Shown here piece after piece: positions 3,917-17,440 of a DNA stretch of 64,000 bases (position 1 is the first letter of the stretch; every line of letters begins with the position of its first letter). The position numbers were made by a program, and so were the translations under genes. The stretch is from Marinitoga lauensis. GTDB taxonomy: Bacteria; Thermotogota; Thermotogae; Petrotogales; Petrotogaceae. The notes under the pieces were generated by a model that had not been told where the DNA came from, made no database searches, and worked only from the letters and a program-made list of their open reading frames with translations. The DNA is taken from assembly GCF_004135675.1 (NCBI RefSeq), contig NZ_QHLX01000002.1, positions 124,001 to 188,000 of the forward strand, read 5' to 3'.

Positions 3917-3941
3917 CAGAATGAAAAGTGAATAAAAAAGA

Positions 3942-4033
3942 TCCGCAGGGAGCTACTAATCCGTAGCTGAGAGTGAGGTGGAAGCCTCTGACCCTCATAA
4001 CTTGATCTGGTTAATACCAGCGAAAGGAGCGGA
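3942..4033 (+). promoter_or_regulatory. TPP riboswitch aptamer, copy 1 (orphan)
   Basis: The Thi-box hallmarks are present in order: GCTGAGAGTGAGG, GACCC, AACTTGATCTGG and TTAATACCAGCGAAAGGAG. The P1 helix is TCCGC (3942-3946) with GCGGA (4029-4033). Thi-box aptamers bind thiamine pyrophosphate and normally shut off thiamine genes. Here the downstream gene is a secreted protein of unknown function, and a terminator plus a second promoter lie between. The strand is certain from the order of the conserved elements. Confidence 0.92.
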
Positions 4034-4051
4034 GCAGAGATAAAAAAATCA

Positions 4052-4254: not shown

Positions 4255-4285
4255 TTATTAAAAAAAATATATTGGAGGGATGGTT

Positions 4286-4780
4286 GTGAAAAAGTGGTAT
4301 ATTTTTATTTTATTAATAGTGCTGTTTGTAACAAGCTTAAATGCTGCAAGTATTTTAAAAACTGTCACTAAATATCATTATTCTTATTTAAACAGTTCAA
4401 AGTTGGGTGAAACTGCATGGGAGTATGTAACTGGAGAAGAAAATAGAAGCTCCGTATCTGAAAATTTTAATTATTCAATTAAGTTAACAAATTCGTGGAG
4501 TTGGTCAATTGATTTAAATCTTCTAGGAAAATTAGGGTTGGGTGGAAAAAGAGAAGATTCAACAGAAATTACAAGAACATATAATGTATCAATTCCTCCA
4601 TATTATGGTTGGTACTTATATAAAAAAACTACTAATACTAGATATTATTATAAATACTGGGTAGAAGAAAAAGAGATTTATGATGATGGTACTATAAAAA
4701 CTATTGATAGGAGTAATGATCAGTTATTTTATAAAACTACAATCAGTGAAACTACAAAAACGGAATTAAAAGGTTTATAA
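4286..4780 (+). CDS. secreted beta-rich protein (cassette 1, first gene)
   Basis: Start GTG 4286 is chosen because GGAGG ends seven bases upstream; the in-frame ATG at 4280 overlaps that site. The product begins with a signal peptide (MKKWYIFILLIVLF...LNA). A Ser/Thr/Tyr-rich strand pair follows: SVSENFNYSIKLTNSWSWSI, then REDSTEITRTYNVSIPPYYG. The pattern of alternating small polar residues before a P-x-x-Y-x-G turn is shared with the protein at 9292 and resembles the amphipathic hairpins of beta-pore-forming toxins. That resemblance is an inference from pattern only. The protein is about 165 residues with no Cys and no lipobox. It heads a three-gene set with a propeller-like protein and a TolC-like protein. 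Confidence 0.65.
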   Translation: MKKWYIFILLIVLFVTSLNAASILKTVTKYHYSYLNSSKLGETAWEYVTGEENRSSVSENFNYSIKLTNSWSWSIDLNLLGKLGLGGKREDSTEITRTYNVSIPPYYGWYLYKKTTNTRYYYKYWVEEKEIYDDGTIKTIDRSNDQLFYKTTISETTKTELKGL

Positions 4781-4790
4781 AAAAATACAT

Positions 4791-4818
4791 TCCCCATAAC
4801 AGTATTTGTTATGGGAAT
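4791..4818 (+). promoter_or_regulatory. intergenic hairpin without T tract
   Basis: CCCATAAC / TTGTTATGGG forms a stable stem just after the 4286 gene and ends about 20 bases before the ATG at 4837. With no T run it is more likely an mRNA stabiliser or processing site than a terminator. Confidence 0.45.
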
Positions 4819-4836
4819 TAGGATAGGAGGAGTAAT

Positions 4837-5751
4837 ATGAGAAAGAGAATTTTAGTAGTATTTATTATTGTTGTATCTTTTATTTTAACCTTTGCAGATT
4901 ATAACATTTTAATTCCTTCTGCTAATAATTTTATTAGAACCATGGAAGTAGAAAATTATAAAATTAAGTTTTTATACTCAAAAGAAATTGAAAAATATAT
5001 AAGCATCGATAAGTTTGCATCTGGTAAAAATGGAAACATTGTTTTATTTGAAAATATGGGTAGAAACAATCTATATATATCCAATTTAGAAAATTTAGTC
5101 AAATGGAATGTTATTACATTAGATAAATTTCCAATACCTTCATATGACTCCACTTTTCATTTTGTAACAAATGGCAATTCTGTAGTATTTTTTTATAATA
5201 ATCATAAAAATAATAACTTAGAAATTTATCAATATTCTTTATCTGAGAAAAAATGGAAGTTAATAAAATCTTATTTGAATTCATCATATTTTGATATGTA
5301 TCCATCAAAAATCAATGATAATTTTTTATCTTTTGTTATACAAAATAATAAAAATGAGATAGAACTTCATCTTTTAAATATAACCGATAAAGAAGACATT
5401 ATGATAAAAAATAATATTACTGGTGAATATAAACTGGATGTAAATACAAAAGGAGATGTTGTTTTTATAGATAATATAAAAATTGAATACTTTAATAATG
5501 AAACAAAAGCAATAAAAGAAATAGATTTAAATAATAATTATCCAGAAATAATAACAAATCCACCATATTTTGTAACCTTTATAAGTGATAGTAATATTGC
5601 TATATACAGTAATAATAAATTAATAATATTTAATACTGAAAGCTGGAAAATAAAAGATGTTATATATGAGATCCCGAATGCTATAGTTGGTTTAAACGGT
5701 CTGAGTGATGGTAGTATTTTAGTAAATATTTATGATTATAAAGGAGAATAA
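4837..5751 (+). CDS. secreted beta-propeller-like protein (cassette 1)
   Basis: 304 residues starting with a signal peptide (MRKRILVVFIIVVSFILTFA). The mature part has repeated short blocks of the form NGNIVLFENMGRNNLY, SYFDMYPSKINDNFLSFVIQ, LSDGSILVNIYD, about 45 residues apart. This is the rhythm of WD/YVTN-like propeller blades, though I recognise no named family. GGAGGAGTAAT gives a strong ribosome binding site. The next gene begins two bases after its stop. The protein at 10037 has the same size class, the same position in its cassette and similar blade-like blocks, so the two are probable paralogues. A role in exporting or displaying the first-gene product is inferred only from cassette order. 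Confidence 0.6.
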   Translation: MRKRILVVFIIVVSFILTFADYNILIPSANNFIRTMEVENYKIKFLYSKEIEKYISIDKFASGKNGNIVLFENMGRNNLYISNLENLVKWNVITLDKFPIPSYDSTFHFVTNGNSVVFFYNNHKNNNLEIYQYSLSEKKWKLIKSYLNSSYFDMYPSKINDNFLSFVIQNNKNEIELHLLNITDKEDIMIKNNITGEYKLDVNTKGDVVFIDNIKIEYFNNETKAIKEIDLNNNYPEIITNPPYFVTFISDSNIAIYSNNKLIIFNTESWKIKDVIYEIPNAIVGLNGLSDGSILVNIYDYKGE

Positions 5752-5752
5752 T

Positions 5753-6893
5753 ATGTTGAAAAGAGTATCGTTTTTAATAATAATTTTTATATCCTCTTTT
5801 GTATTTGGAAATGAAAAAAAATATTCTTTTGAAAGACTTGTTTTTTCCGGAATAAATAGCTCATATGAAGTAAAAATGATAGACAATAAATTGAATAATT
5901 TAAATACAGTTAACTTATTGAAAGATATTATTCAACCCAGCTTATCTTTAACTTTTAATAGCAATTTTATTAATTTATCAACATCTATTTCTATTTCTTC
6001 AATTATTATGGCAAATTCAAAAATATTTAGATATAATCTTGAAAAAGAATATAATTCTTTGAATAAAAAACAAAAAAAGAATGAGATTATATACCGTATT
6101 TTAAATTTATATTCCATGATTTATAACGAGAAAGAATCACTTGATTTATATTTAAAAATTAATGAGATTTAAAAAAGAAAAGAAATTTAGAAAAATATAA
6201 TCAAATAATAAATGAATTAGAAAATAGAATATATTTAAAAAAATTACAATAGAAGAAATGGAATTAGATTTAAAGAATATGATAGGAGCGGATACTTCTT
6301 TAAAATATTTAAATTTATGTGAAAATCCAAAATTTTTAGAAATTTTGAAAGAGATTGATTTAAATATAAGTAATGAACCTCTCAATTTTAAAATGTCTAA
6401 ATTAGGATATAAATTAAATAACAACAGTACATACATTAATAATTTTTCAAATATTGCTGATTTTTATTTAGACACAAACTTTGAAACCTATGATTATGGT
6501 GTTCGTTTGAATTTATTTAAATTTTCAGGAGTAAATTTATCTTTAAATTACTCCTTTAAAAGTAATTATTTTAATCTTTCGATTTATGTCAATTTGGGAA
6601 ATATAGAGGAAATGAATAATTTAAATTCTCCAGAATTTAATGAAAAGAGAGAAAAATTTTATTATAAAGAAAATATAGCCATTATGTCTAAAAAATACTT
6701 GTTTTATCAAAAAAAGTATAATGAAATAAAGAAATTATTAAAAAGTTTTAATTTTGAAACACCATCAGTAGAAAATTTGATAGAATATCTACAAATATAT
6801 GAAAAATTTTCACAAGTAAGAGGTATATATATTCAAAATACATTAAAATTAGCAAAAGAAATTGGAATTTTAGATGAAATATATCAAAAATAA
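5753..6893 (+). CDS. TolC-like outer-membrane protein (cassette 1), two frame breaks
   Basis: AAGGAG precedes ATG 5753. The product has a signal peptide (MLKRVSFLIIIFISSFVFG), a strand region (PSLSLTFNSNFINLSTSISI), then long coiled-coil helices rich in K/E/N. A second strand-helix half follows: FKFSGVNLSLNYSF, and a final helix ending EIGILDEIYQK. This two-fold helix-strand order and ~380 residues fit an outer-membrane efflux protein. Two breaks, near the A6 run at 6171-6176 and the A7 run at 6238-6244, close with one base each. The paralogue at 11225 is unbroken and supports the reconstruction. It ends directly at the second riboswitch repeat block. Confidence 0.6.
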
Positions 6894-6927
6894 ACTTAAA
6901 GATTAAAAAAAACACAAACAACCTCCC

Positions 6928-6956
6928 TTGAAATACAGGAAAAATAATGATATAAT
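6928..6956 (+). promoter_or_regulatory. promoter of TPP riboswitch copy 2
   Basis: TTGAAA at 6928-6933, 17-base spacer, TATAAT at 6951-6956, identical to copy 1. Confidence 0.8.
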
Positions 6957-6981
6957 CAGAATGAAAAGTGAATAGAAAAGA

Positions 6982-7074
6982 TCCGCAGGGGAGCTACTAA
7001 TCCGTAGCTGAGAGTGAGGTGGAAACCTCTGACCCTTATAACTTGATCTGGTTAATACCAGCGAAAGGAGCGGA
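6982..7074 (+). promoter_or_regulatory. TPP riboswitch aptamer, copy 2 (orphan)
   Basis: Same conserved Thi-box elements as copy 1 (GCTGAGAGTGAGG, GACCC, AACTTGATCTGG, TTAATACCAGCG). P1 is TCCGC 6982-6986 with GCGGA 7070-7074. It differs from copy 1 by a few bases in loops (an extra G after GCAGGG, GGAAACC for GGAAGCC, CCTTATAAC for CCTCATAAC). The changes leave the conserved core intact, so both copies look functional. Confidence 0.92.
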
Positions 7075-7090
7075 GCAGAGATAAAAATCA

Positions 7091-7298: not shown

Positions 7299-7844
7299 AT
7301 GAGAAAATTTTTTATCTTATTTGTAATTTTATTAACAATGTTGCTGTTGAATATTTTAACCACTTTTTATATTTCGAATTTAAATAACAATAATGTTCCT
7401 AATCCTGATATATTTTATAAACATAGTAAAAATTTAAATATTGAAAAGGAGTTCTTACAGAGTAAAGAATACACATGCGGTCCAGCAGCTTTAAGATATT
7501 TGTTATTTCTATATGGATATGACATTTCCGAAAGTACAATATCTTTAATTGCAGGAACAGAACAAAAAGGTACAACACTTTCTGGATTAAAAAAAGCTGT
7601 AGAAATGATAGGATTTGAAGGAATTGGATTAAAAGGTGATTTTGAAAGTTTAAAAAGCATAAGAAAACCTGTTATAGCATACATAAATAATAACCACTAC
7701 ATTGTTATAGAAAATATTAAAAGTAATAATATATATGCCTTTGATCCTCAGATTGGTTATATAAAAGTACATTATTCTGATTTTTTAAAAGTATGGAAAG
7801 GTATATACTTTAAAATTAAAACGATGAAATTAGAAGGAGAATGA
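7299..7844 (+). CDS. membrane-anchored C39-family (double-glycine) peptidase
   Basis: 181 residues. One N-terminal membrane segment (residues 4-26) after MRK places the rest outside the cytoplasmic membrane. The catalytic set of family C39 is visible: oxyanion Gln54, Cys60 in TCGPAALRYLL, His133 in NNHYIVIEN and Asp149 in AFDPQIG. C39 enzymes cut leader peptides after a Gly-Gly or Gly-Ala pair. They are usually the N-terminal domain of ABC exporters; here the domain stands alone. ATG 7299 follows AAGGTGAAAAT. The stop overlaps the start of the following Lnt-like gene by four bases, so the two are translationally coupled. A matching leader occurs in the next gene but one, at 9292. Confidence 0.85.
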   Translation: MRKFFILFVILLTMLLLNILTTFYISNLNNNNVPNPDIFYKHSKNLNIEKEFLQSKEYTCGPAALRYLLFLYGYDISESTISLIAGTEQKGTTLSGLKKAVEMIGFEGIGLKGDFESLKSIRKPVIAYINNNHYIVIENIKSNNIYAFDPQIGYIKVHYSDFLKVWKGIYFKIKTMKLEGE

Positions 7845-9160
7845 AAATGTTATCTCTTGCTACAGGGTTGCTCTTTTACTTTTCAAATCCACCATTCAAA
7901 ACGGTTTTCTTTATTTTTTATGCATTTATTCCATTTTTTTATTATATAAATAATCGGATTCAAAAAAGAAAGATATTATTATTTTCTGTATTAGTATCAA
8001 TAATAAACTCTTCATTTATTTTTACATCGCAAATAGAATTAAAGTATAAACTGGCTGGGTTCCTATTTTTTGTTTTAATAATAACAACACTTTTTTATTT
8101 CTTTGGAATATTTGTAAAAAAAATAGAGAATTATAAATATAAAACATATCAGAAAGTATTTTTGATATCTTCATTCTGGTTATTTGAGGAGTACTTTGCA
8201 AGTAAAATATTTTATGGATTTACACCTCATCCTGGTATAGCGTTATATAATATAGGAATATTTCTGTTTTTCTCAAAATATATAGGAATGATAGGATTAT
8301 CTTTTATTATAATAGCAATAAATTATTGGTTATATTATCTTTTAAAAAATAAAAAATATAAAATGTTTTTGATAATTTCTTTGTTGATTTTCCTCTTGCT
8401 TAATATAAGCTTTTTTTCACAAAAAGATATAGAAAAAACTAATCAAGAAAAAATAAAAATCGCAATAATACAGGGAAATATATCTTCAAATGAATATGAA
8501 CTTGCCCAAAATAACAATAAATTAAGTTATGAGATATTCAAAAAATACATAAATCTTTCATTGAAAAGCATAAAAGAATATTCGCCACATATAATAATCT
8601 GGCCAGAAACTGCAGTTCATAGATGGATGATGCGACTACCTGATTATAGAAATGAAATATTAGATTTTGCGAAAAAATACAGGATTAATCTAATAATAGG
8701 AACACCAGATTTAACCCTACAAGATAAAGAATATAATTCCATATTCTTCATTTCAAAGAATGGAAAAATAATAGGAAAATATTATAAAAATAAGCTTGTA
8801 CCATATTATGAAAAAGTATTTGAAAATGGAAAAAAATTAAAAATCATTAATATAGATGGAATAAAAGCAGGGGTTGAAATATGTTTTGAAGTAATATTTC
8901 CAAAAATAACAACCGAACTGAAAAAACAAGGTGCTGGTGTAATAATAATAGCAAGTAATAATGGGATGTTTGGTTATAGTATAGTACCGTATTTAATATC
9001 AGCACATGGAGTATTCCGAGCAGCAGAAAATAATATATATGTAATTCAGGCAACAAATTCAGGAATATCACAGATAATTTCTCCTGATGGAAAAATATTA
9101 AAATCATCAAAATTGTATGAAAGAAAAATTATTAATTATGAAATGCCAATAAAAAATTAA
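7841..9160 (+). CDS. second apolipoprotein N-acyltransferase-like protein
   Basis: 439 residues: about six membrane helices (residues 1-195), then a carbon-nitrogen hydrolase domain with the Glu-Lys-Cys triad. These are Glu256 in IIWPETAVHRW, Lys316 in KYYKNKLVPYYE and Cys348 in GVEICFEVIFP. Lnt moves an acyl chain from phospholipid to the N-terminal Cys of lipoproteins in the inner membrane. The window has another, canonical lnt at 15038-16515, so this copy is an extra one embedded in the accessory block and coupled to the C39 peptidase. Two starts are possible (7841 or 7847); GAAGGAGA favours either. None of the neighbouring secreted proteins shows a lipobox, so its substrate is unknown. 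Confidence 0.8.
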   Translation: MKMLSLATGLLFYFSNPPFKTVFFIFYAFIPFFYYINNRIQKRKILLFSVLVSIINSSFIFTSQIELKYKLAGFLFFVLIITTLFYFFGIFVKKIENYKYKTYQKVFLISSFWLFEEYFASKIFYGFTPHPGIALYNIGIFLFFSKYIGMIGLSFIIIAINYWLYYLLKNKKYKMFLIISLLIFLLLNISFFSQKDIEKTNQEKIKIAIIQGNISSNEYELAQNNNKLSYEIFKKYINLSLKSIKEYSPHIIIWPETAVHRWMMRLPDYRNEILDFAKKYRINLIIGTPDLTLQDKEYNSIFFISKNGKIIGKYYKNKLVPYYEKVFENGKKLKIINIDGIKAGVEICFEVIFPKITTELKKQGAGVIIIASNNGMFGYSIVPYLISAHGVFRAAENNIYVIQATNSGISQIISPDGKILKSSKLYERKIINYEMPIKN

Positions 9161-9233
9161 ATAAAACATTTTATTCTGTATATGGAGAAAACATATATTA
9201 TATTATATTTATAATAACAATAATGATATTAAT

Positions 9234-9256
9234 CAACAATAGCGCGCTATTTGTTG
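9234..9256. promoter_or_regulatory. GC-core palindrome in 5' leader, copy 2
   Basis: Same palindrome as at 1511-1533, core TAGCGCGCTA at 9240-9249. It ends 35 bases before ATG 9292. A TATAAT at about 9210-9215 may be the -10 element. Confidence 0.55.
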
Positions 9257-9291
9257 TAAAAAGAAAATAAAAAATGATGGGAGGATGGAGA

Positions 9292-10053
9292 ATGAAAAAG
9301 ATAGTAGTATATGCTATTTTGTTGATGATATTTGTAAATATGATACCTGTAAACCTCTTTGCTAATTCAAAAGTTATTAATGTAAGAGTTTTGACTGATG
9401 ATGAAATGAAAAACATTATTGGTGCTGGTAGTAATAATGGTGGTGGTAATAGTGGAGGTAGTTCTACAAGAAAAGAAATTGAGGGAGAATGGGTTAAGAG
9501 AATTTACTATGACATTTACTCTTATAATAAAATAATAAAAACCTCAAATACCGGTTGGATGGATACGGGTCCTTTACCAGGAAATTACAGTGTTTCTGAT
9601 ACTGTAAATTGGAGAGCTAGTGGTTCTATTAATCTTTCCCTCCCAAAACTCAAAGATATCGTTTCTGTAAATGTTGGAGCTTCATATTCAAAAAGTAAAA
9701 CATATACTTTATCATTTACTTTTCCAGAATATCATAAAGGAATAGTGTGTTCAATTGAAGAAGGAAAAATCGAAAAAGGAACTATTAGTATAAAAAGAAG
9801 ATTTAGTGTATACGATGGAATGACTTTAATTAGACAATATAATACATATGAAAATAAAAATTATATTGCTATTGGTCCCGAAAGACTCGTTTGGAGACCT
9901 TTATTTATTACGGGAAACACTATAAACAATCCTGGTGGAGACGTTTATAATTATAATCTTTATGTATCAAGAACTGATTTAGGCTTTTCATCAAACTCTA
10001 AAGTATTTGTTAAAAAAATATTAAGTGGTGGTAAAGATGAAAGTTATAAGTAA
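9292..10053 (+). CDS. secreted protein with signal peptide plus double-glycine-type leader (cassette 2, first gene)
   Basis: Start ATG 9292 follows GGGAGG by seven bases. Residues 1-25 form a signal peptide (MKKIVVYAILLMIFVNMIPV). Residues 34-45, LTDDEMKNIIGA, match the double-glycine leader pattern at every key position: Leu -12, Thr -11, Glu -8, Met -7, Ile -4, Gly -2, Ala -1. Cleavage would expose GSNNGGGNSGGSS, a flexible linker, then a beta-rich domain. That domain has VSDTVNWRASGSINLSL and SYSKSKTYTLSFTFPEY, similar in layout to the 4286 protein. A standalone C39 peptidase lies two genes upstream. The gene overlaps the next by 17 bases. Function is not known; a secreted toxin or surface protein is possible. 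Confidence 0.7.
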   Translation: MKKIVVYAILLMIFVNMIPVNLFANSKVINVRVLTDDEMKNIIGAGSNNGGGNSGGSSTRKEIEGEWVKRIYYDIYSYNKIIKTSNTGWMDTGPLPGNYSVSDTVNWRASGSINLSLPKLKDIVSVNVGASYSKSKTYTLSFTFPEYHKGIVCSIEEGKIEKGTISIKRRFSVYDGMTLIRQYNTYENKNYIAIGPERLVWRPLFITGNTINNPGGDVYNYNLYVSRTDLGFSSNSKVFVKKILSGGKDESYK

Positions 10054-11142
10054 TTCAACAATAAAAAAAATAATTATCTTCTCTTTTTTATTGATTACAT
10101 GTATTCCTAAAGTTTTTTCAAGTGAAATAAAACAATTTAGTTTTGATTATATTTTAACAATATCTTTCAATAAAGAATATCAGTATAAAAACAATCATAT
10201 AGTTTTATCCTTACCAAAAAACTCCTGGAAAAATGATTTTGATTTTCAATGGACAACAAATGAAAAAGGCAACATTATATATGTGTTTAAGAATTTAAAT
10301 AAATTTAATAATGCAAATGTTACTGTGTATAAAATTGATATATTAGAAAATACGGTAAAAAAGATAAAATTAAATACTTTGGTTCCAGCTCCATTTCCTC
10401 CATGGATGGATATTTTAGATGTTTATGCAAAAAAGATAAGATATATTTTTTGACATTTGGTGGTATTATAGTATTTAATCAAAATTTTAAATTTAGCGAC
10501 TTTTATATATTTGAAGATGTTGCTAATTCAATTATCAAAAAAATAAAAAATGAATATGAAAATGGCACGTATTTTATTCCATATAATCACGGGAATCAGA
10601 TAATCATTGATAATAATGAAAATATAATTGTTAGGGATATATCTGGTGTTAAAATATATTCCTATTCTGGGAAAAAGGAAAAATTTTTTGGTGGAAAAAT
10701 ATATTCATTATCAAATAAATATAATATAAATGCAGATAATAATGAATATCCTTTATTATTAGAAGATGAGAAGGGTGAAATATTTATTGCTCTTTTTAAA
10801 GATCCAAATTCAAAAAATGATTATATTTTTAATACAGTAGAAATATATAATTTAAAAGGTAATAAGTTATTTGAAATAAAAATGAAAGATAGGGAGTTTT
10901 ATCCTACAGCTGCTTTATTAAAAAATTATATTTATTTACTTACAATATCATCAAATGATTCAAATTCATATTTGCAAAGCTTAAAAATTGATATAAACGA
11001 TCATAAAACATTATTTAACATTAATAATGAGAAAAATAATGCATATTACCGTTTCAGTGATATTAAAGTAAGAAAATTATTCAATAATGAATATATTTAT
11101 ATAAAAACATATAATAAGTTGAAAATTTTTAAAGAATTTTAA
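10037..11142 (+). CDS. secreted beta-propeller-like protein (cassette 2), one frame break
   Basis: ATG 10037 follows GGTGGT and overlaps the end of the preceding gene. The signal peptide is KKIIIFSFLLITCIPKVFSS. Blade-like blocks follow (KGNIIYVFKNL, NENIIVRDISGVKIYSYSG, KGEIFIALFKD, LKNYIYLLTISSND) and the protein ends LKIFKEF, about 370 residues in all. One A added to the A6 run at 10430-10435 joins the two halves as DVYAKKDKIYFLTFGG. It occupies the same place as the protein at 4837 in the first cassette. Family unknown; propeller assignment is by repeat rhythm only. Confidence 0.6.
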
Positions 11143-11224
11143 TAAGGGGAAAATTTAGAAAAGATGTTTTTTATATGTTTAATTATTTGAAATAAGATGA
11201 TAGAAGTAGAGTTAGGAGGAAGAG

Positions 11225-12463
11225 ATGAAAAAAATTTTTGTTTTACTATTAACTATTTTTGGAATATTTATTATTGTGTATGGTGAAAATAACATTAAAA
11301 ATATTTTTTTGAATTATGAAGATGCATATAAATATTATGTCTCAATCTTAAACTCAAATCATGAAATAAAAAATGAAAATATTCTAGAAAAATATAGTGA
11401 TTTTTTACCATATATCTCATATAATTTTGGTTTTAATGGGGATAAAATAAGTGGAGTAAATTTAAATACTTCATCAATAGATTTCTCATGGAGTATATTT
11501 AGAGCTGATTTTCTTGATAAAACACAAATGAATAAATTAAATAAGCAAATAGCAAATTTGAATGAGGAAAATGTTAAAAAAAATAATATTTCATATTTTA
11601 AAAGTATCTTTTATAACGCCTATTACCTTCAGAATTATATAGAATTTTTGGAAAAAGAATATAGTAAATTAAACAATATTCTAACAACTACTGAAATAGA
11701 AGATTTAAAAAAATATCTGACAAAAAAGAAATTAGAACTATCATTACAAGAAAACTATGAATCATTATATAATTACAAAAATATGCTTATAAAAAATTTA
11801 AATTTAGAAACACAGAAGGAATTTAAATTAAAATATCCAGAAAAATATTATAATTTAAAAAAATTTCATGGAATTATAGAAAATGTACAATATAAACCAG
11901 TAGAAAGTTTTTTAGAATACAAAATAAGTTATATTACACAACAACAAAATAATCTGGAAAAAAAATTAAGATCCAGCAATTATTTTAATGTTAATTTAAG
12001 TGGAGGATATGATATTTTAAATAATAACTTCTCAATATCATTGAACTTTAACCTATCAGAAAATATACCATATTTAAAAATATCCAGTAATGGGAGTTAT
12101 AATATGGATTATATAAACTTTAATGGCTCTATAAATCCATATCTTTTTAATAATAAAGATGATTATGAAAATTCAAGTGAAGACAATCTTCAAAATACTA
12201 TTTCTAAAATTATAAATTCAAGAGAAAATTTGAAAAATGAAATACTAAAAATAGAAAATGAACTATCGCTTAATGAAATTCAGATAAAAATACTTAAAGA
12301 AGAAATAAAAAATATAAAATCAGAGTGGGATAAATTTGAGAAAGAATATCAAATAGAAAAAATACAATTAGAAAGAAAAATGAAAATTATATACTACAAT
12401 TTAAAAATCGAAGAATTTCTTGAAACTTATACCCAAATAAAAAACCCAAACAACCTCCCTTGA
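11225..12463 (+). CDS. TolC-like outer-membrane protein (cassette 2)
   Basis: 412 residues with a signal peptide (MKKIFVLLLTIFGIFIIVYG). The strand-and-helix halves are SDFLPYISYNFGFNGDKISG plus a long coiled coil, and FNVNLSGGYDILNNNFSISL plus a second coiled coil (about residues 320-395). This is the arrangement of outer-membrane efflux proteins, which form a channel for type I secretion or efflux. GTTAGGAGGAAGAG is a strong ribosome binding site. The last codons run into a remnant of the riboswitch repeat (12450-12480: CAACCTCCCTTGAGATACAG). No inner-membrane ABC transporter or membrane-fusion protein is nearby, so the partner is missing or elsewhere. Confidence 0.65.
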   Translation: MKKIFVLLLTIFGIFIIVYGENNIKNIFLNYEDAYKYYVSILNSNHEIKNENILEKYSDFLPYISYNFGFNGDKISGVNLNTSSIDFSWSIFRADFLDKTQMNKLNKQIANLNEENVKKNNISYFKSIFYNAYYLQNYIEFLEKEYSKLNNILTTTEIEDLKKYLTKKKLELSLQENYESLYNYKNMLIKNLNLETQKEFKLKYPEKYYNLKKFHGIIENVQYKPVESFLEYKISYITQQQNNLEKKLRSSNYFNVNLSGGYDILNNNFSISLNFNLSENIPYLKISSNGSYNMDYINFNGSINPYLFNNKDDYENSSEDNLQNTISKIINSRENLKNEILKIENELSLNEIQIKILKEEIKNIKSEWDKFEKEYQIEKIQLERKMKIIYYNLKIEEFLETYTQIKNPNNLP

Positions 12464-15037: not shown

Positions 15038-16515
15038 TCAGATAAGACTAAATAATAATGCTAGTATTAATATAGTCACTAAAATTATATCAGCATATTT
15101 CGTATAAAACGTTTCTTCTGTTTCTAATGGAACAGAAAACTTTTCTCCAACATATGCTTTTATTGGCAATGTTTCAACAATTCTACCGTATTTATCTACA
15201 ATTCCTGTAATTCCAGTATTTGATACCTGAATAAATGTTCTTCTATTTTCCACTGCCCTAAATACAGCCTTTGAAAAATGTTGTATTAATGCTGTTTTCT
15301 GACTAAACCAACCATCATTTGATATAGCAACTAAAAACTGTGCTCCATTTTTTACAAAATTTCTTGATATCTCAGGAAAATAAGTTTCAAAACAAATTTG
15401 AACACTAAATTTTTTATTATTTAAATCTAAAACAGAATACTCTTTTCCAGGAGTATAATAATTCACCAGTTTAAAAAATGAAAACATTTTAAAGATATTT
15501 TCATATGGTAAAAATTCTGCAAAGGGCATTAATCTTATTTTATTATATATTTTTTCTATTTGACCATTTTTATTTAAATATATGGCACTATTATAAAATT
15601 CTCTTTTTTCACTATTCACAGTTGGAAATCCTATTATCCAATTTTTATCAGACATCTTCACTGCTTCCTGTATGATTCGAAATATTTCAGAGTCCCTAAT
15701 ATCTCTTATAAATACAGCTTCAGGTAATATCAATAAATCAGATTTTTCACTGTGTTCCTGAAGATAATTTGATATTTCAACATAAGAACTCCATGTATTA
15801 TCTGAATATTTTACTTCCTGGGGCACATTAGTTTGAAAAACACTAACTTTAACAGCATTATCATTCATTTTTACATAAGGAAGTTTTTCTGATATTACAA
15901 AATTTACCAGATATAAACTTCCAATTATTATTACAGCATATTTTACTCTTTCTCTCTCTGAAACAAAGGCTATTATTGAATTGACAAATAAAATTAAAAT
16001 TGTCAAACCTATAGTTCCTGTAAACGGTAATATTTGCAAAAAACCTATATGCTGATATAATGCATCTGATAAATTTCCGCCAGTAAAAGCAAAATCCCCA
16101 AATTCCTTCAATATTTCTGCTGCTGCATATGAAAATACCGAAAAAAATACCAGCGATTTAAAATTTATTACTCTTGATTTTCTGAAATAAAGTTCTCCCA
16201 AAAACCAGATGATATAATATGGTAATGTCAAAATTAATACCATTAATAAAAAAGATAGGAAACCTATATAGCCAGGAAATGTATTTATTACTTCTGGAAT
16301 ATTTTTAGATAATACCGGTATTTCCCACCACAGAGTAGTAACCATTAACGAATAGCTATATAAAAATAGCTTTAATAGCCTTTCAAACGTTCCTTTTGAA
16401 TGTGAAAACGAGTATAAAAATGGTGCTACTGAAAACCAGATAAAAAATGAAAAAAGATTTCCAGGCATTGCAAGTCCTGTTAAAACCCTGAAATAACTGG
16501 CAATAATATATTCAA
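15038..16515 (-). CDS. lnt: apolipoprotein N-acyltransferase
   Basis: The membrane part has about six to seven helices, followed by a nitrilase-type domain with Glu in LILPEAVFI, Lys in IYNKIRLMPFAEFLPYE and Cys in VQICFETYFPE. It finishes lipoprotein maturation by N-acylation. I place the start at TTG 16515, eight bases after GAGGAG. The frame from there reads MNILLPVISGFLTGLAMPG once one T is added opposite the A4 run at 16482-16485, which is the normal beginning of Lnt. The longer frame from 16576 has no ribosome binding site and would overlap the upstream gene by 56 bases. A second Lnt-like gene is at 7841. Confidence 0.88.
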
Positions 16516-16520
16516 GACTA

Positions 16521-17440
16521 TCACTCCTCATCAAGAAAACGGAAATCAACAGCATGAAACGTTGCCAATCTTTCATTTTTTGATTTTTTCCATACCACCT
16601 TTAATGGTGCAGCAAATTCTGGTTGTAATCTTCCCTTTTCTATCCAATATCTTGACTCTTCATTTCCATATATACCAGGATTCGCACTAATTGTTAATTC
16701 TATTGGTTTATCAACAATATACACTTCATCAATACTTTCTTCATTTTCGAGTATTTCTATAATTTCATCATATATTTCTTTTGGTGGGGATGGTTTTATA
16801 TTTATCAAGGCTATATTTTTTGAAAGTGGTCCTATAATTTTAACATTAGCTATCTCTCTTTTATAATCATATCTGTCCAATATATCATGAATTATTTCAT
16901 TTGCAAAAGATACAGCCCTTCCATGATAGTCCATATTAACCAATAATTTTAACAAATGCTTCAGTTTACATCCTTCTCTGTGAGCATTTTCACCAACTTT
17001 TCTTATCTTTAAATTATATATTTTTACAATTTTCCTTAACTCCTCTTTAGTTAAACCAATAATAGGGGAATAAAGATTATTCATTACTTTTATACATGTT
17101 TTTCCCAGGAGTCTGATTGATTGGCTCCAGTAGCAACTAATGAATCACCAGCGACGTCACGAACACCTGACATTTTTAATTTTCTTGTACATTGATTACA
17201 GTTTGGTCCTTTTTTCATAATCTCATATTGTGACTGATGCTTATCAGCAAAGTATATTTCCAATCCAAGGTCTTCAGCTGTCTTAAGCACTGATTCCACA
17301 CTCTTAGAATATGCAAAAGGCCCAAATAATACGTTAACAAGTTTCACCTTTTCTGGTCCCAATGCTTCTTTTGCAAGAAATGCTGCAATGGTACTATCCA
17401 TACCACCAGAAAAGGCCACATATAATATATTATCTTTCAC
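16521..17440 (-). CDS. PP-loop superfamily ATPase, one frame break
   Basis: The N-terminus has the PP-loop SGGMDSTIAAFLAKEALG at residues ~10-27. A NCNQCTRKLKMSG Cys pair follows, then SLVATGANQSDSWEK. This pattern is typical of ATP-pyrophosphatases of the QueC/LarE/TtcA kind, which adenylate a substrate. One A added to the A5 run at 17099-17103 (on the minus strand) continues into KTCIKVMNNLYSPIIGLTKE and a ~187-residue C-terminal part. That part has an ISANPGIYGNEESRYWIE segment that I cannot name. Its stop TGA overlaps the ribosome binding site of lnt. Substrate unknown. Confidence 0.7.

Follow-up and report, generated by a model that had tools for sequence, protein, structure and literature searches.

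The described systems closest to the locus analysed here, a gene cassette in a 64,000-nucleotide stretch of Marinitoga lauensis DNA (contig NZ_QHLX01000002.1, positions 124,001 to 188,000; hereafter the window), are the Fap and Nap systems. In Pseudomonas, the C39 peptidase FapD was reported in 2017 to carry a Sec signal and to share an operon with the channel FapF, and its active-site mutant C38A abolished FapC secretion (PMC5557850). In that report Rouse et al. called the target of FapD unclear and described the Fap proteins as lacking canonical C39 sites; FapE alone was found by mass spectrometry to lack N-terminal peptides (about 70 residues). Homologues of fapD and fapF are reported as neighbours in five more phyla (PMC6173800), so the spread of exported C39 peptidases is partly known already. 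The Neisseria nap island (2025) encodes double-glycine (GG) peptides with the C39 peptidase NapP and a FapF-like channel, and its cleavage step is placed in the periplasm (PMC11798529). The published GG leader motif is LSx2ELx2IxGG (PMC3897388); leaders are described as ending in GG, GA or GS, and hydrophobic positions at -4, -7 and -12 are reportedly required by the C39 domain LahT150 (PMC10885120). An earlier, sequence-only reading of the window had stated that no described system has this layout. That claim does not stand, since FapD and NapP are both periplasmic C39 peptidases encoded beside an outer-membrane channel (PMC5557850, PMC6173800, PMC11798529).

Results

Layout of the cassette and comparison with described systems

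Five genes follow one another on the plus strand of the window, encoding a C39 peptidase, a second apolipoprotein N-acyltransferase (Lnt2), a Sec-type protein with a GG-type leader, a propeller-like protein and a TolC/OEP-like protein. We consider it probable that they form a two-step maturation cassette acting outside the inner membrane. Its features are as follows.

7299-7844, plus strand: exported C39 peptidase, 181 amino acids (aa), PF03412 E 4.7e-29
About residues 4-24 of the C39 peptidase, plus strand: N-terminal tether helix, a single hydrophobic helix after MRK
7458-7460 (Q54), 7476-7478 (C60), 7695-7697 (H133) and 7743-7745 (D149), plus strand: C39 catalytic codons, invariant in alignments
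7841-9160, plus strand: second apolipoprotein N-acyltransferase (Lnt2), TIGR00546 211.5 bits
9292-10053, plus strand: Sec-type preproprotein, 253 aa (longest open reading frame, ORF, 9274-10053)
9292-9363, plus strand: predicted signal peptide, residues 1-24, from inspection and a hydrophobicity script; signal peptidase I site likely after LFA
9391-9426, plus strand: double-glycine-type leader motif LTDDEMKNIIGA, residues 34-45, matching 7/7 residue classes
Between 9426 and 9427, plus strand: predicted C39 cut, at the end of leader motif LTDDEMKNIIGA
9427-10050, plus strand: predicted mature secreted protein, starting GSNNGGGN
10040-11142, plus strand: secreted protein, called propeller-like by eye, split over two overlapping frames (10040-10453 and 10402-11142)
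11225-12463, plus strand: TolC/OEP-like protein, a possible outer-envelope channel, PF02321 E 7.1e-12

The cassette shares with Fap a standalone Sec-exported C39 peptidase encoded with an outer-membrane channel, and FapE-like proteins adjoining exported C39 peptidases bear a GG-type leader as well. It differs in that the window C39 reaches only 49.8 bits against the FapD model NF058616 (cut-off 330) and falls outside the FapD-like clade, and in having a TolC-like OEP (PF02321) instead of FapF, plus Lnt2, with a cargo that has no NCBIfam match. No Fap subunit model in NCBIfam matched the window cargo or OEP; for the propeller-like genes the scan covered Pfam alone and gave no family match. The nap island (NapA-C, NapP, NapF) has GG-motif products, a periplasmic C39 and a FapF-like outer-membrane channel in common with it, but its peptides are smaller than 10 kDa, a holin is suggested for the inner membrane, and the main text of that paper contains neither 'signal peptide' nor 'Sec' (PMC11798529). 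FilB of the putative Fil pilus system, compared by model score alone, likewise has a matching C39 model (NF050078), against which the window C39 scores 42.1 bits (cut-off 475). C39-ABC exporters (PCAT) and double-glycine bacteriocins share the peptidase family and the leader chemistry, but the window C39 lacks the ATP-binding cassette (ABC) part, and its partner protein has a signal-like start and a cargo of about 200 residues. The window version is thus a distinct variant, with a separate C39 branch, a TolC-like protein in place of FapF and a second Lnt; it would work like Fap and Nap, yet its peptidase is not FapD.

A standalone C39 peptidase on its own branch

The window C39 scored 101.3 bits against PF03412 (cut-off 22), which places it in the family. 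Residues Q54, C60, H133 and D149 were invariant across four aligned rows from the window's order (Petrotogales), and their equivalents were among 12 invariant columns in 15 exported C39 proteins. Pfam matched no ABC domain in the 181-aa protein. By the positive-inside rule, the MRK start followed by a single helix predicts a peptidase tethered at the membrane with its catalytic part outside. The sequence-only reading had described the four residues, the lone N-terminal helix and the predicted topology in the same way. An exported-C39 profile found 6mpz, a double-glycine protease, as its best match in the PDB. Across the order, represented by 38 genomes, three have a PF03412 match, and the window C39 is the sole one in its own genome (G000). 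A plain bacteriocin exporter (PCAT or type I) was rejected as an explanation because the window C39 has no ABC part and the genome no second PF03412 match.

In a quick, unrooted tree of 79 C39 domains, with 16 of the 40 gammaproteobacterial rows drawn at random and C39-ABC proteins labelled by length, the three rows from the window's order formed their own branch (support 97), outside both the 26-row proteobacterial exported-C39 clade (97) and the cyanobacteria/Deinococcus/Thermus clade; these three rows were flagged for odd composition. They lay on the solo side, opposite 28 of the 29 C39-ABC rows, across a branch with support 99 and length 0.079. On a descent of the window C39 from a C39-ABC protein, this tree and tblastn with C39, in which ABC-fused domains ranked first, point in different directions.

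The partner protein and its leader

The ATG at 9292 is preceded by a ribosome-binding-like GGAGGA. Signal sequences were assigned with a hydrophobicity script or on inspection rather than with SignalP; a signal-like segment covers about residues 3-24 of the 9292 protein, and the leader motif lies about 9 residues further, at residues 34-45. Leaders were scored with seven residue classes built on LSx2ELx2IxGG, which superseded earlier stricter and looser patterns. Before the classes were fixed, the cassettes of the order, the cyanobacterial loci and the first ten plasmid loci had already been inspected; the gammaproteobacterial and long-C39 loci had not. LTDDEMKNIIGA matched all seven classes, with a GA ending, and so conforms to the GG leader motif. 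It was the only 7/7 match among 28 signal-like ORFs of the window, where shuffling predicted 0.05. The sequence-only reading thus held for the fit to the leader rule and its position, for the apparent Sec export of both partners, which their signal-like starts suggest, and for the nearby TolC-like channel and extra Lnt. The predicted mature cargo matched neither Pfam nor NCBIfam families at E values up to 1, its profile gave only weak splicing-factor matches in the PDB, and no lipobox was seen at the start of the protein.

Five genomes of the order carry the gene for the GG-leader protein (GG gene). Conservation of the leader among homologues, which the sequence-only reading had set as its own test, was borne out in the relatives, including a second genus; the signal region is damaged in two same-genus genomes, G022 and G027. 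The second-genus genome, G035, has three GG-type copies, MSDSQMSAVVGG, MSDSQMSAVVGG and MSDSQMSAVVGT (VVGT once), with different cargo and in the gene order C39-Lnt-GG, and its leaders follow an AFA-type signal site where the window reads LFA. This recurrence is the strongest support for conservation of the putative leader. Within the genus, G022 and G027 retain the leader (with F at -12 in G027) on cargo that is 26-29% identical to that of the window or G026: G022 matches the window at 18/24 positions in residues 22-45, 8/8 in the first eight mature residues and 51/182 in the remainder, and G027 at 17/24, 8/8 and 48/182. Within the leader, synonymous codon differences separate the window from G022 and G027. 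The G026 leader is identical to that of the window, which says little since the two proteins are 84% identical overall.

Family knowledge and the conserved residues suggest the following route. The 9292 preproprotein would cross the inner membrane via Sec, signal peptidase I would remove residues 1-24, and the membrane-tethered C39 would recognise the leader through L-12, M-7 and I-4 and cut after Gly-Ala (after A45), releasing a product with the N-terminus GSNNGGGN. Judged solely from gene neighbourhood, the TolC-like protein is the likely exit across the outer envelope. Lnt2 would be a dedicated third component that perhaps acylates the product.

GG-type leaders beside exported C39 peptidases of other bacteria

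A GTDB scan with a C39 alignment (A1) found 57 loci; in most of them the C39 is of standalone length and begins with a signal or lipoprotein-type sequence. In four cyanobacterial loci the protein upstream of C39 carried MSDAELAQVEGE, ISDAELAQVEGE, LSDEELEQVEGE or LSSEELEQIEGE; the signal script accepted the leader protein in two of them, and three downstream neighbours gave weak beta-barrel matches, one above its cut-off. Plasmid loci came from a cyanobacterial C39 query (21 records matched, 15 taken). A leader gene was seen by eye near C39 in all of the first ten (L115-L124), some leaders ending GE or GK and the signal in L118 being doubtful; among the next five, L156 and L158 had one and none was seen in L155, L157 and L159. 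The exported-C39 profile matched 66 of 369 gammaproteobacterial genomes at 1e-15, and 40 of the 57 standalone-length matches were taken. Controls were 20 of 32 long-C39 loci, assumed to be C39-ABC from the length of their open frames (580-1070 aa), and 53 GTDB loci with other C39, 50 of them usable. Many of these other loci are from Bacteroidales and Selenomonas, and several are nearer the PA2778 type.

A locus was counted when an ORF with a signal-like start and six or more of the seven motif classes lay on the strand of C39 and within 1.5 kb of it. This applied to 22/40 gammaproteobacterial, 9/19 plasmid or cyanobacterial and 3/4 own-order loci, against 1/20 long-C39 and 4/50 other C39 loci; within 2.5 kb the counts were 23/40, 10/19, 3/4, 2/20 and 8/50, respectively. 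Per locus, the gammaproteobacterial set differed from long C39 (p 0.0001) and from other C39 (1e-6). None of these comparisons corrects for relatedness among the rows. That all standalone C39 peptidases behave alike was rejected, given the motif neighbour in just 4 of the 50 other C39 loci. Full 7/7 matches among signal-like ORFs numbered 4/247 in gammaproteobacteria, 4/144 in plasmids and cyanobacteria and 3/35 in the other cassettes of the order (five stretches; the G022 and G027 copies are uncounted, since the script finds no signal there), compared with 0/52 for long C39, 0/368 for other C39 and 0/16 for L016 and L020 together. Pooled, this is 11/426 for exported-C39 loci vs 0/436 for controls (p 0.0004; gammaproteobacteria alone, p 0.017). 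Several gammaproteobacterial loci that were not counted show RGR, RGK, RGG or RGM variants. No convincing signal-plus-leader gene adjoined C39 in the N. gonorrhoeae and A. baumannii regions, except for a gonococcal 69-aa ORF about 2 kb from C39, which has a 6/7 motif after a signal-like start and overlaps a longer frame.

Other cargo was also found near exported C39. On a Deinococcus plasmid, the protein at L117 3898-4455 has a signal-like start, the leader LSDAELDEVKGE and an Ntox33 domain, and may be a toxin-domain cargo of the same route. Three Acinetobacter plasmid genes (L122 1507-1833, 3400-3867 and 4284-4697) have a common leader, LSRQEMKDTQGA, and differing downstream parts. L188 gave a sub-threshold class IIb bacteriocin match. 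Taken together, the loci suggest a testable rule, not stated in the open-access literature searched, that exported C39 genes neighbour putative Sec proteins with a GG-type leader.

Four GG proteins adjoining proteobacterial C39 were compared with the FapE family (cut-off 250), scoring 96.5 in L174, 46.6 in L156 and a marginal 16 in L120, with no match in L170, where a neighbour matches FapF at 152 of 700 bits. The sub-threshold FapE-like proteins L174 4880-5716 and L156 5602-6249 have a signal-like start and a GG-type leader ending RGR; FapE-like leaders end RGR, RGK or RGG, e.g. LSDPELAQMRGR. FapE-like matches occurred in 15 of the 369 gammaproteobacterial genomes, all 15 among the 66 with exported C39, and none of the 369 had FapE above the cut-off; FapE tblastn gave one plasmid record. 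Among 16 FapE-like loci, nine had a clear leader, three were not read, two showed no motif in the chosen frame and two were doubtful; a leader was visible in larger loci for six of the seven without a clear one. Because FapE-like neighbours of exported C39 carry such leaders, FapE is a likely target of FapD, as judged from these FapE-like sequences rather than from Pseudomonas FapE.

A second Lnt in the cassette

Lnt2 scored 211.5 bits against TIGR00546 (cut-off 132.9) and belongs to the family. Aligned with the housekeeping copy, it keeps E256, K316 and C348, the E-K-C triad that we take to be the Lnt catalytic set. Its first ATG (7841) overlaps the C39 stop as ATGA, but alignment with G027 favours the ATG at 7847. 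In G035 the C39 stop likewise overlaps the Lnt2 start in ATGA, and the overlap between Lnt2 and the GG gene reads GTGA. All 38 genomes of the order have an Lnt match, 36 of them above the cut-off, and a second above-cut-off Lnt was found only in G000, G022, G027 and G035 (three in G035). These are four of the five genomes that carry parts of the cassette; the remaining 33 have no such second copy. Two of the G035 Lnt2 copies lie behind an intact C39 and one behind a C39 fragment; in G022 the front part of Lnt2 is in a separate frame. The assignment of the second Lnt and the TolC-like gene to the cassette is supported. An Lnt partner of an exported C39 is not stated in the open-access literature searched.

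One reading of Lnt2, which we rate as improbable, is that the C39 cut and Lnt2 make a cysteine-free lipoprotein. C39 would expose a new N-terminus that is a flexible tether (GSNNGGGN, VSPKKPSK or similar), and Lnt2 would acylate its amine directly, without a diacylglyceryl-cysteine. Such a tether resembles those behind lipidated N-termini. The idea arises because no lipobox was seen, Lnt2 lies between C39 and its partner in the window and in G035, and in the order a second Lnt accompanies only cassette parts.

Alternative explanations

Several observations weigh against a two-step maturation cassette. Only the window and G026, among four same-genus copies, have an intact signal-leader start: the G022 copy (L019 7223-7930, minus strand) opens with an atypical start and no signal is detected by the script, and the G027 copy (L014 10441-11097, minus strand) has no start codon ahead of the leader. 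In G022 and G026 only a piece of C39 is left, and in G027 the gene is cut by the end of the contig. Part of the leader's similarity to G022 and G027 may therefore be inheritance in decaying copies; in these two genomes the whole cassette appears to be decaying together. Between the window and G026 the leader region (21/24) is hardly better kept than the rest (165/200). G026 has no Lnt between its C39 fragment and the GG gene, Lnt2 of G027 is broken up, and in the window a frameshift has cost Lnt2 the last membrane helix that its relatives have. Exported-C39 loci also contain more signal-like ORFs than controls. Counted per ORF, gammaproteobacteria (24/111) differ from long C39 (1/14, p 0.18), other C39 (4/48, p 0.03) and pooled controls (5/62, p 0.016) by a modest enrichment, and plasmid and cyanobacterial loci (10/58) vs the pooled controls gave p 0.11. 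Observed matches exceeded shuffled ones about threefold in controls too (1 vs 0.39 and 4 vs 1.4; gammaproteobacteria 24 vs 6.9), so shuffling understates the background. The loose 6/7 motif alone is noisy; 7/7 matches and family-wise leaders weigh more.

The alternative that survives best, which we still find unlikely, is that the segment is simply a conserved propeptide or a structural element of the N-terminus, with the mature protein starting at the signal peptidase I site and C39 acting elsewhere. Conservation extending eight residues beyond the supposed cut would fit this, as would G026, whose GG protein is intact although no more than a fragment of C39 accompanies it, the contig being short. 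Against it stand the match to all seven leader classes, the recurrence of the same leader chemistry adjoining exported C39 elsewhere with other cargo, and the secreted 166-aa protein at 4280-4780, which is weakly similar to the cargo and has neither leader nor C39. It is very unlikely that the role of C39 is to bind the leader, as a chaperone or tether, and leave it uncut. Degenerate C39-like domains that do not cut are described for some type I exporters (PMC5557850, PMC6173800), but here the catalytic Cys, His, Asp and Gln are retained, and the FapD cysteine was reported to be needed for secretion (PMC5557850). Chance resemblance in an accidental neighbourhood has two further 6/7 matches in the window (three among the 28 signal-like ORFs, 0.89 expected overall) and the modest per-ORF enrichment elsewhere in its favour, and is highly improbable in view of the sole 7/7 match in the window, 0/436 in controls vs 3/35 in other cassettes of the order, and the motif in a second genus.

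Neighbouring genes and frameshifts

Further features of the window are listed below.

4280-4780, plus strand: 166-aa secreted protein without GG leader, no C39 adjoining
4280-6893, plus strand: neighbouring genes without C39, encoding the 166-aa protein, a 304-aa propeller-like protein and an OEP-like protein
5732-6172 and 6258-6893, plus strand: OEP-like gene upstream of the cassette, two frames, named by eye
15038-16576, minus strand: housekeeping Lnt, used for comparison by alignment with Lnt2

The 166-aa protein has a signal-like start and aligned weakly with the cargo (20% identity), and the kinship profile itself included that protein. Relative to relatives, frameshifts affect the propeller-like gene 10040-11142 (a single 398-aa ORF in G026), the end of Lnt2 (9150-9275) and the upstream OEP-like copy 5732-6893 (one 380-aa ORF in L020). 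Such frameshifts in neighbouring genes, together with an assembly completeness of 87.9%, suggest assembly errors or decay in G000. An identical 17-bp stretch occurs at 6915-6931 and 12447-12463, where it coincides with or closely follows the end of each OEP-like copy, and is perhaps the seam of a cassette duplication. Two thiamine pyrophosphate (TPP) riboswitches (RF00059, 70 and 80 bits) lie at 3937-4045 and 6977-7086, with no obvious thiamine genes downstream. In relatives (L016, L019 and L020) a region of this kind leads into genes that by eye look thi-like, so the riboswitches seem to be remnants of a lost thi operon, which fits better than a role as cassette regulator. The G035 cassettes in L017 and L018 adjoin similar unclassified ORFs of 513-520 aa, perhaps recombining or mobile units.

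Discussion

The window form adds to the exported-C39 systems an acyltransferase that is not reported for Fap or Nap in the open-access literature searched. Its wider meaning lies in a rule that can be tested, namely to seek a Sec protein with a double-glycine leader adjoining an exported C39, and that suggests what this poorly understood class of C39 may cut. In Fap-like operons the rule names FapE-like proteins as candidates and predicts the cut. It may place amyloid-type, bacteriocin-like and toxin-domain cargo on a single route with that of Thermotogota.

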